Below the pieces are notes generated by a model. The model made no database searches. It was given only the letters and a program-made list of their open reading frames with translations, and was not told the DNA's origin. A stretch of DNA of 64,000 nt from Dicyema japonicum (lineage: Eukaryota; Dicyemida; Rhombozoa; Dicyemidae): contig RDEW01000013.1 of the NCBI GenBank assembly GCA_011109175.1, forward strand, positions 783,221-847,220, given 5' to 3'. Each line of letters opens with the position of its first letter. Position 1 is the first letter of the stretch. Shown here piece by piece: positions 49,499 through 52,415 of the stretch. The translations under genes were made by a program, and so were the position numbers.

Positions 49499-50031
49499 TT
49501 ACTCAAATGACAGCACAACATCCTTAAACTCGGGTGTTTTCACAAACTTACTAAACATAAAATAAATAAAGACTGAAATGGCACATTAGCCATCGAAAGC
49601 AGTTTAATGGAGGCTACGAATGACTCCTCAGACCTCATTTTAAGGTAAATGACCTCAGATATCCCACTCTGAATGATCAATTTGGCGCATTCATTGCATG
49701 GGAACATTGTCGTGTACAGTGTAAGGTGAGAATTGTCCATGGAGTTTCTGTTTAAAATAGCGTTCATTTCCGCGTGGCAAACTATCTGTGAGTACTTTTA
49801 ACCACCATATGGATATTTAGAGTTTATCCAGTCATTGGAGTTGCTATTCCAAGGTAGAAGGTCGTCAGAGCACCCAGTCGGCATTCCGTTGTACCCAATT
49901 CCTACAATTTTATTATTTTTGTTGACAATGCAAGCCCCAACCTTGAAAAATAATTTATTATTTACCTGAGTTTTGGGGTCTTTACTTCTTTTGGAAGAGA
50001 GGAGCGCCACAGACATAAAATACTGATCCAT
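49499..50031 (-). CDS. DCTD: Deoxycytidylate (dCMP) deaminase
   Basis: Converts dCMP to dUMP for thymidylate synthesis. Removing three GT-AG introns (49942-49965, 49782-49805, 49551-49573; 23-24 nt) gives about 153 residues. Order: [70 protein letters not shown] (zinc His and catalytic Glu), [20 protein letters not shown] (the two zinc Cys), FKDVVLSFE then stop. Somewhat shorter at the C-terminus than the human enzyme. The frame is intact and all zinc and catalytic residues are present, so it should be functional. It lies 236 bp from the SINE at 50279. Confidence 0.93.
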
Positions 50032-50459
50032 GATAAATAATTCTCACGCTTTTCGCTTTTCATTTGTAGTTTTAACAATTTAAAATATTATTTATATTAT
50101 TATTATAATATTTAATAAATATTATATTTAATAAATTTTAATATGGTTTTTCCGATTTTTGATTAACATTTTTTTTAAATTGCAAGTCTTCGCTCAACAA
50201 TGTGAGATCAACATTCCTGAATAGGATTCTCATTTTTTCGTTCCGACAAAATTTTATTTGCACATTTATGGTGATTAAGCCGGGTGGCTTAGTGGTTAGG
50301 TGTCGGGCTTAAGTGGCTTAGGCTACGGGTTCGAATCTCGCTGCTGTTCACCTGGTGGAAGGTTCCACGCATCTACGATGCAGAAATGGTTTGACGAGTG
50401 ACGCCGTCATCAGTGAATACTCACTGCGGAACTGGATTTGTCTATACCATTTCAGGTTT

Positions 50460-50653
50460 AAAGTGGGTCTTACCAAAAGCAAAGTGGGTCTTACCAAAAG
50501 CAAAGTGGGTCTTACCAAAAGCAAAGTGGTACTTACCAAAAGTGGTACTTACCAAAAGCAAAGTGGGTCTTACCAAAAGCAAAGTGGTTCTTACCAAAAG
50601 CAAAGTGGGTCTTACCAAAAGCAAAGTGGAACTTACCAAAATCAAAGTGGAAC
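50460..50653 (+). repeat. Left subterminal 21-bp repeat array
   Basis: Units of the type TTACCAAAAGCAAAGTGGGT with two variable bases after GTGG. Nine CTTACC occurrences, one unit shortened near 50545. The right end carries the same unit inverted. Confidence 0.92.
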
Positions 50654-50691
50654 AAAAATTATTTTTTTGTTATAGGATGAAGATTAATTTC

Positions 50692-50959
50692 AATTGCAAA
50701 AGTTTCGAGATCAATTGCAAAAGTGACGAGATCATTCGCAAAAGTGACCAAAGCAACATGCAAAAGTGTACGAGATCATTTGCAAAAGTGACAAAGCAAC
50801 ATGCAAAAGTGTCGAGATCAATTGCAAAAGTGACGAGATCATTTGCAAAAGTGACAAAGCAACATGCAAAAGTGTCGAGATCAATTGCAAAAGTGACGAG
50901 ATCATTTGCAAAAGTGACAAAGCAACATGCAAAAGTGTCGAGATCAATTGCAAAAGTGA
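50692..50959 (+). repeat. Internal 63-bp higher-order repeat of three 21-bp units
   Basis: Subunits CGAGATCAATTGCAAAAGTG, CGAGATCATTTGCAAAAGTG and CAAAGCAACATGCAAAAGTG (each 21 bp with one more base) alternate for about four rounds. All share TGCAAAAGTG, close to GCAAAGTGG in the terminal units. Ends 57 bp before the transposase ATG. Confidence 0.9.
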
Positions 50960-51016
50960 CTAAGCAAAAACCTATATATTTGCATGTCTGCGCAAATATT
51001 TCATTTTTTTATTCAT

Positions 51017-52069
51017 ATGCCTGCTCAAATAAAAAAGTCTGAAGCTGAAATTAAGAAAAATCTTATTATCGGGGCTTATGAGGGAGATGGTGACTGGAGG
51101 GAACTTGCAAAATCTCTCGATGTTCCGAAAACTACTACTTATCGTTGGTTGAAAAACAAAAACAAACCTGATCAGCGAGGGGGATCAAAAGCAAAAAAAT
51201 TTCTTGATAAACATAAAGATTATTGTGTTGAACAGCTCGAAATTAACCCTAGGATTACTCTTGAGACCTTGAGAATTCTTTTAAATTCTAATTTCAGCTT
51301 AAATGTTTCAAAAGAAACCATTCGAGTCCACTTGGACGGTGCCTGTTATTCTTTGAAAGATATCAGGTATGAACCAGAGAAAGGCAATAGTGAATTAAAT
51401 AAAGAAAAAAGAAAAAAATTTATAACTTCATTATTGGAATATCAATCGGAGGAAATTCCAATATTATTTATGGATGAAACAAATATAAACATGCACATAT
51501 CCCGTAAAAAGGGTCGATCAAAAAAAGGAACAAGGGCTAATGTCGTTGCAACAAGTTCGCGAGGTGCCAATGTACATTTCATTGGTTGCATCGGGTCCCT
51601 TGGATTGTTGCATTATGAATTCAAACGTGGATCCTTTAATAAAGAATCCGCCCATGAATGGGTGAGAATTTGTCTACGAAAAGCCAGGGAAGTTTACAAT
51701 TTTCCAGTAGTGCTAGTAGTAGACAATGCTCCATGCCATTCAGGAATTGAAGAAATTGTCAGAGATAATGAATTCATCGGAAATAAAATTTTAAGATTGG
51801 GTCCCTATAGCCCTATGCTCAACCCAATTGAGAATATTTGGTCAGTTTTCAAAGCTGATGTAAAAAGACACATTGCTACAGATATGAAAAATATTTTGAA
51901 TGGTGTGAGACAAGAAGCTTTGTCAACTACGGAGTTTCGACTTCAAAAGTTAGAAGAAAGTATGATTAATTCATTATGTATAATCACTCCATCTTTATGC
52001 AACACCGTAATTGCTAGAATTCAGAGGTTGGCCCCATCGGTGTTAAATAATGATGACATGGTTTATTAA
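51017..52069 (+). CDS. IS630/Tc1/mariner-type transposase, D,D35E
   Basis: Cuts and joins the element ends. I take the ATG at 51017 (MPAQIKKSEAEI, about 350 residues); the frame is open 33 bases further up. N-terminal helix-turn-helix: DWRELAKSLDVPKTTTYRWL; second DNA-binding part: NPRITLETLRILLNSNFSLN and KETIRVHLDGACYSLKDIRY. Catalytic domain: first Asp in ILFMDETNINMH, a GRSKKGTRA linker, second Asp in VVLVVDNAPCHSG, and Glu in GPYSPMLNPIENIWSVFKAD. I count 35 residues between the second Asp and the Glu. No stops or frame breaks. The right repeat array begins 10 bp after the stop. Confidence 0.92.
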   Translation: MPAQIKKSEAEIKKNLIIGAYEGDGDWRELAKSLDVPKTTTYRWLKNKNKPDQRGGSKAKKFLDKHKDYCVEQLEINPRITLETLRILLNSNFSLNVSKETIRVHLDGACYSLKDIRYEPEKGNSELNKEKRKKFITSLLEYQSEEIPILFMDETNINMHISRKKGRSKKGTRANVVATSSRGANVHFIGCIGSLGLLHYEFKRGSFNKESAHEWVRICLRKAREVYNFPVVLVVDNAPCHSGIEEIVRDNEFIGNKILRLGPYSPMLNPIENIWSVFKADVKRHIATDMKNILNGVRQEALSTTEFRLQKLEESMINSLCIITPSLCNTVIARIQRLAPSVLNNDDMVY

Positions 52070-52078
52070 ATAATTTTT

Positions 52079-52213
52079 GTTCCACTTTGCTTTTGGTAAG
52101 TTCCACTTTGCTTTTGGTAAGTTCCACTTTGCTTTTGGTAAGTTCCACTTTGCTTTTGGTAAGTACCACTTTGCTTTTGGTAAGACCACTTTGCTTTTGG
52201 TAAGACCCACTTT
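52079..52213 (-). repeat. Right subterminal 21-bp repeat array
   Basis: Six GGTAAG units (inverted relative to the left array), e.g. CCACTTTGCTTTTGGTAAGT. Outer unit joins the terminal TTTAAACCTGAAATGGTA. Confidence 0.92.
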
Positions 52214-52415
52214 AAACCTGAAATGGTATAGAAAGGACACTCACACAAGAAAAAGAAAAAAAGAAGTGAAGATCATTCCTTGGTTCTACGATTAGTTAAA
52301 ATTAACTGTTCTTTACTTAAATAAAGTGTGTGTCCTGCCTATGCGGAGCTATAAAAATACTATGGCTCTCGTGAAAAGGCTTTATTATTATTATTATTAT
52401 TATTATGGTGATTAA

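Follow-up and report, generated by a model that had tools for sequence, protein, structure and literature searches.

The window analysed here, a stretch of 64,000 nucleotides of the Dicyema japonicum genome (GenBank assembly GCA_011109175.1, contig RDEW01000013.1, positions 783,221 to 847,220), carries a transposon at positions 50445-52228. Its flanks and tips read C-TA, TACCATTTCAGG...CCTGAAATGGTA and TA-G, and the boundaries proposed by the first-pass annotation of this DNA are confirmed, a TA dinucleotide standing directly outside them on the left (50443-50444) and on the right (52229-52230). From left to right, the element is composed of the left tip of the terminal inverted repeat (TACCATTTCAGGTTT, 50445-50459, plus strand), a left terminal array of 21-bp units (AAAGTGGnnCTTACCAAAAGC, 50460-50650, plus), an internal array on the promoter side of the gene (50690-50960, plus), a TATA-like box (TATATATT, 50973-50980, plus), the transposase ORF (51017-52069, plus), a right terminal array in which the unit of the left array is inverted (52079-52213, minus) and the right tip of the terminal inverted repeat (52214-52228, minus). 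The TATA-like box lies 44 bp before the ATG at 51017, and its letters are identical in four genomic copies (L001-L004). A dCMP deaminase gene adjoins the element (49500-50031, minus strand). Judged by eye against known protein, it contains three introns of about 23-24 nt, close to the published values for Dicyema, which are 26.2 nt on average (PMC2222250) and a mean of 24.93 in the table of a second study (PMC2483917). Among the best 120 deaminase matches listed, identities are 54-65%, without a near relative, and the named sources are mostly animals. No COX1 was found in the assembly, possibly just because a mitochondrial contig is missing from it. The element is surrounded by a repeat (50278-52406) that ends in a TTA run and that we call SINE-like; this label is interpretive, and no tRNA was called by ARAGORN in the window. 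A second copy of this repeat is found in another locus (L083, about 1471-1790), inside a transposon of the F3 family described below.

The transposase ORF is intact and encodes 350 amino acids from the ATG at 51017, or 361 from an alternative in-frame start at 50984; the open frame measures 369 codons from stop to stop and is closed just before 50984. A profile search identifies a DDE_3 domain (E 4.5e-21). Sequence alignment of the window protein with 19 relatives, picked among the best 120 of 207 hits, shows that D153, D236 and E272 are invariant in all 20 sequences, corresponding to a DD35E triad. In a predicted model (mean pLDDT 82), the DDE domain is preceded by two three-helix bundles (helices 7-22, 27-33, 38-47 and 64-76, 82-93, 99-106), as expected for a predicted bipartite helix-turn-helix DNA-binding domain, and the Pfam HTH models matching the protein all stay below their cut-offs. 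The best Foldseek match of the model is the Mos1 paired-end complex (E 1.2e-11, with a TM-score of only 0.35 over the whole chain), followed by the catalytic domain of Sleeping Beauty (E 6.7e-8); the catalytic domain of Metnase is also matched.

With its DDE domain, its predicted HTH region and its TA duplication, the element belongs to the IS630/Tc1/mariner superfamily, with a DD35E signature. The first-pass annotation had called it mariner-like. This is right at the level of the superfamily, but the element is not a mariner proper, since the third catalytic residue is a glutamate (E272), 35 residues after D236, and not the aspartate of the DD34D signature. The transposase also passes the NCBIfam IS630 profile NF033545 (113.7 bits for a cut-off of 100), and the 20 members of the alignment all match this profile at E values up to 0.1. 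This profile match and the preference for CTAG described below are features shared with the IS630 family, the bacterial branch of the Tc1/mariner superfamily. Among the 120 of 207 hits listed, relatives at 44-62% identity come mainly from short unnamed contigs; the named ones include Harmonia axyridis, Cucumispora dikerogammari and Octopus sinensis. None of six candidate stretches in viral contigs was confirmed as a relative, and one of 15 in bacterial and archaeal genomes was, a distant locus in a Desulfovibrio MAG. Octopuses are hosts of dicyemids. The 44% identical transposase filed under Octopus sinensis (P0057) could reflect either the presence of dicyemid DNA in the octopus assembly or a transfer.

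The arrays are the most conspicuous repeats of the window. Their TRF scores (422, 350 and 235) are its three highest, the next place scoring 81, and five Markov-shuffled windows did not exceed 59, which rules out chance repeats. At the left end, 10 AAAGTGG cores are found between 50460 and 50644, with one step of 16 instead of 21 bp; at the right end, seven CCACTTT cores occupy 52082-52207, with one step of 20 bp. A longer pattern counts nine and six units, respectively, in agreement with the nine left and six inverted right units initially reported. The internal array contains 12 exact GCAAAAGTG cores, or 13 if one mismatch is allowed, and its best TRF period is 63, that is 3 x 21 bp. This bears out the higher-order repeat, ending 57 bp before the ATG, that the annotation had described.

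The integration site could be deduced by comparing the window with the second copy of the SINE-like repeat, which supplies one empty site, GTCTAGAAAGG. The occupied site in the window reads GTCTA[TACC...GGTA]TAGAAAGG. Thus, the target is CTAG, the duplication is TA and the element runs from TACC to GGTA. A search with a 22-base tip pattern gave 84 genome sites at up to three mismatches, against two for the reversed control. At 71 such ends in 49 loci (L001-L028, L059-L078, L081), CTA precedes 65 and TA 69, and 70 have A or T at position -4; as a background, C precedes 732 of the 4528 TA dinucleotides of the window. The family thus targets CTAG.

The copies of this family, hereafter F1, were analysed in the 64.67-Mb eukaryote assembly (191 contigs). 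Both ends are present in 27 of the 48 scanned loci, 17 with an F1 interior and 10 consisting of ends only. With a strict pattern, at least two terminal units are found at both ends in 21 of the 27 two-ended copies, and at one end or more in 26. The arrays are therefore not private to the insertion in the window, so that the outcome named by the annotation as refuting its proposal did not occur. The six remaining copies (L010, L014, L017, L019, L026, L075) have a single unit at one or both ends and may have decayed since they inserted. Each of the 17 copies with an F1 interior contains one or more exact internal cores. Spacings are exactly 21 bp in 247 of 277 cases for terminal units and in 79 of 91 for internal ones, the remainder including distant chance hits. 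As for the specificity of the internal unit, all 65 genome sites at up to two mismatches fall within F1 copies, which leads us to reject a dispersed satellite; at three mismatches, nine of 15 sites lie outside F1 copies, against four control matches. The longest internal array seen (15 units) belongs to a deleted copy (L020), and one end of L074 has 21 terminal cores, far above the other copies.

The ORF of the window element is matched base for base by three further copies, so that L001-L004 agree over all 1053 bp, and the transposase protein is 100% identical in five copies (in one of them over residues 3-350 only). From these identities, the element looks recently active, in line with the suggestion, made from the intact ORF, that it may be active. 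One of the copies with an identical ORF (L004) is devoid of the left tip. Unit counts were compared between copies, as had been recommended. Despite their identical ORFs, L001, L002 and L003 have 9, 11 and 6 left units, 13, 14 and 11 internal units, and 6, 8 and 9 right units, respectively.

Nine of the ten ends-only copies have at least three terminal units at both ends. With a looser pattern, none has an internal array; L065 has one exact core, within a terminal array. The terminal arrays thus suffice in cis, and the internal array is dispensable in cis for transposition and goes with the gene. All ten share one interior (e.g., L073, 250-760) and an inner inverted repeat some 30 bp long, and therefore form a single non-autonomous family. 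This interior has the appearance of a LINE fragment and looks like a captured piece mobilised by F1 ends.

The terminal units were compared in 13 young elements, picked by hand (187 units, found with a pattern that leaves positions 9-10 free and tolerates up to four mismatches elsewhere). Every position has one base in at least 95% of the units, except positions 1, 9, 10 and 21. From the tip inward, the letters at positions 9-10 are ordered GT, TA, AA, with 406 concordant and 58 discordant pairs, a result reached by none of 2000 permutations. The order is stricter in the four copies of autonomous type (150 pairs against 7) than in the nine ends-only copies (256 against 51), in which the innermost unit is often TA instead of AA. 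Because the pattern left these positions free and the elements are kin, this ordering is a description, not an independent test.

A spacing of 20-21 bp was found in five of the six lineages examined (F1, F2, F3, F4 and F6), F5 being the exception. The lineages were chosen by convenience, and F4, F5 and F6 were read in the stretch before the gene only. In F2 (L055, L082; 33% identity), the units measure 41 bp and are made of a 20-bp and a 21-bp half. In L055, arrays are present at both ends; the one on the promoter side runs from the tip in the direction of the ATG, and a retroelement insertion interrupts the other, left array. This insertion (689-1272) has an A-rich tail and, by eye, an apparent AAATTGACAAGT duplication. 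F3 (L079/L080, L083, L084; 34-39%) has 21-bp units, with 6.7 copies at the promoter-side end and about two at the other end in the C154 copy; L084 has one unit at the end opposite the promoter side. F4 (C2, L096; 38% over part of the length) was met in a locus fetched as a control, the content of which was not known beforehand. Before its gene, a 21-bp unit is repeated 9.4 times in an array whose end lies 57 bp from the ATG, and this unit has 269 genome sites at up to two mismatches, against none for the reversed control. Among the 99 exact sites analysed, adjacent pairs within 1.5 kb face inward in 20 cases and outward in none, and 29 of 35 same-strand steps measure 21 bp.

F6 (C109, L098; 29%) has two kinds of unit, an outer one that recurs in steps of 20 or 21 bp on either side of the gene and an inner one of 21 bp that is unrelated to it. 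The outer and inner units have 178 and 67 genome sites, with one and two matches for the controls. The array of inner units is found only ahead of the gene. At 11 ORFs with inner units within 1.2 kb, all 22 inner units are upstream and on the ORF strand (41 of 121 ORF match rows entered this position test, which placed 22 of the 67 inner units). Outer units are also found at no fewer than seven of these 11 ORFs. At two places (C45:906509-907518 and C23:975984-976837), inward-facing outer units occur with no inner unit listed; these may be ends-only elements of F6, parallel to those of F1. In F5 (C190, L097; 26%), no 21-bp array was detected within the 541 bp read. Repeats of 15-17 bp are found upstream of a transposase-like ORF, in two blocks in L097 (157-297), and may be a different kind of array. 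These counts do not represent independent events, since the F1 ends-only copies make up a single family and there is kinship among the F6 copies as well as among the young elements.

The position of the arrays relative to the gene is similar in the different families. In one copy per family (two for F2), with start codons chosen by eye, the nearest array edge lies before the ATG by 40 bp in F1, 78 and 38 bp in F2, 59 bp in F3, 44 bp in F4 and 41 bp in F6. A TATA[AT]A match precedes the ATG by 44 bp in F1, 42 bp in both F2 copies, 42-46 bp in F4 and 33 bp in F6, thus in four of five families, and is absent in the F3 copy. Such a match alone is weak because the genome is AT-rich; its constant place is the point.

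What the units share in sequence is less clear. The terminal units of F1 and F3 are alike (15 of 21 positions; p 5e-5 with the register set at the CAAA core near the tip, p 0.004 register-free). Those of F1 and F2 (12 of 21 and 11 of 20) resemble each other only in the chosen CAAA register (p 0.008 and 0.018; register-free 0.63 and 0.51). For F4 and F6, nothing survives correction against the units of other families (lowest p 0.04; p 0.08-0.73 against F1). The annotation had argued from a common GCAAA(A)GTG core. Its letters are literally present, but the internal units of F1 are not closer to the terminal ones than shuffled units are (p 0.12-0.22 and 0.07-0.32 in two comparisons); in the register-set test, the lowest of 12 unit comparisons gave p 0.017, uncorrected, against F2b. 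Likewise, inner and outer units of F6 show no likeness beyond chance (p 0.52-0.74). Consequently, one protein need not bind both kinds of array. This lack of significant likeness weakens the shared-core argument and speaks more strongly than any other observation against a single binder of all arrays.

We favor, at a rough probability of 55%, the view that the window holds an autonomous, recently active cut-and-paste element whose terminal arrays are multivalent transposase sites and whose promoter-side array serves self-repression. The annotation had put forward a similar scheme. What stands of it is that the arrays occur across the family, that the element looks recently active and that the internal array accompanies the gene, being missing from all ends-only copies and having an upstream-only counterpart in F6; as to the rest, we infer that the transposase binds the arrays, takes part in end pairing and represses its gene. 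Taken separately, the terminal arrays are quite probably multivalent sites. An effect of the promoter-side arrays on the transposase gene is also likely, if a little less so; action through the transposase itself would be the foremost route, though we hold it at somewhat under even odds. A direct precedent in the superfamily is the Tc1 element Bari3, whose left TIR is the promoter and whose transposase lowers expression of a reporter driven by that TIR (PMC4120734). The spacing of two helical turns would place the terminal units on one face of the helix. Several transposase molecules could then assemble on each terminal array and contribute to end pairing. At high dose, an oligomer would spread from the terminal arrays and the tip to the promoter-side array, and transposase bound just upstream of the TATA-like box would repress its own gene. 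A more speculative extension, which we consider doubtful, is that of a face-aligned oligomer on arrays of 20.5-21 bp that nucleates on the terminal units, pairs the ends at low dose and, at high dose, spreads via graded sites into the promoter-side array and silences the gene. Such a dose meter would be common to several of the IS630-like families in this lineage and would have evolved anew with other sequences.

Alternatively, the arrays may be mutational by-products. One site per end would be enough, and slippage or post-excision gap repair would duplicate 21-bp units. Tandem duplication would preserve unit length, and local duplications the order of variants. The different unit numbers of L001-L003 indicate that arrays change fast, and some copies with single-unit ends retain CTA or TA flanks, as this explanation would have it. 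However, the units at either side point inward in F1, F2 (L055), F4 and F6, the units of F4 and F6 have the same period of 20-21 bp without clear kinship to those of F1, and the restriction of the second F6 array to the promoter side is not predicted by slippage alone. We regard this explanation as unlikely. Slightly less improbable, but still rather unlikely, is that a host transcription factor, activator or silencer, binds the promoter-side array while only the terminal arrays bind transposase. The array lies directly upstream of the TATA-like box, and internal units differ from terminal ones within F1 and within F6. Yet a common host factor predicts a common unit sequence and the internal units of F1 and F6 differ (p 0.67); moreover, F2 and F4 extend the terminal-type units themselves to the promoter. 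Finally, the internal array might be an unrelated satellite landed in the element, or code for a repeated peptide, 21 being a multiple of three so that frames stay open through the arrays. This is very improbable, given the near confinement of the unit to F1 and the stop that closes the transposase frame; coding in frame with the transposase is rejected on this latter ground.

Several known systems offer parallels. The subterminal TnpA motifs of the maize CACTA element En/Spm, which belongs to another superfamily, overlap the promoter and TnpA controls this promoter; these motifs are short and are not known to show regular 21-bp tandem phasing. IS630 inserts at the TA inside CTAG (title of Tenzen and Ohtsubo 1991, cited in PMC2170065), a target that it shares with F1; F1 differs by its eukaryotic host and by having 21-bp arrays, both terminal and upstream of the gene. 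In elements of the Tc1 IR/DR group, such as Sleeping Beauty, Minos and Bari, each end has several direct repeats that serve as transposase sites. Bari1 has three per end, bound by the transposase with different efficiency (PMC4120734), so that the one or two repeats per end given as usual by the annotation were an understatement. F1 may work like this group without belonging to it, having phased units in tandem, 5 to 11 at each end (L001, L002, L003, L006), instead of two or three direct repeats, a separate promoter-side array and a DD35E instead of a DD34E triad. Traveler shares the DD35E spacing and the TA duplication; its TIRs of 13-68 bp and its CAGTC/CAGCC tips, as described in PMC7093834, set F1 apart, with its TACCATTTC (TACC) tip and its arrays.

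In other superfamilies, Galileo (P superfamily) has long TIRs with tandem repeats whose number varies between copies, but these repeats measure about 210 bp and not 21 bp; its authors suggest that multiple binding sites are a convergent trait (PMC3573991). Merlin copies with conserved coding sequence have divergent 5' and 3' regions holding tandem repeats, and no regular 21-bp inverted terminal arrays are described in the available text (PMC8101967). Among the open-licence texts searched, no Tc1/mariner element with such arrays was found, which is no proof of absence. To our knowledge, studies of how transposons limit themselves (overproduction inhibition, pairing before cutting) usually rely on ends with one to three sites. 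The elements described here form a natural series. Some families share a spacing but differ in unit sequence, some copies have the same gene but unequal numbers of units, the non-autonomous relatives lack the promoter-side array, and F6 has its additional array only before the gene. It is thus possible to test directly what site number, phasing and promoter binding contribute, and these families supply candidate CTAG-specific transposon systems.
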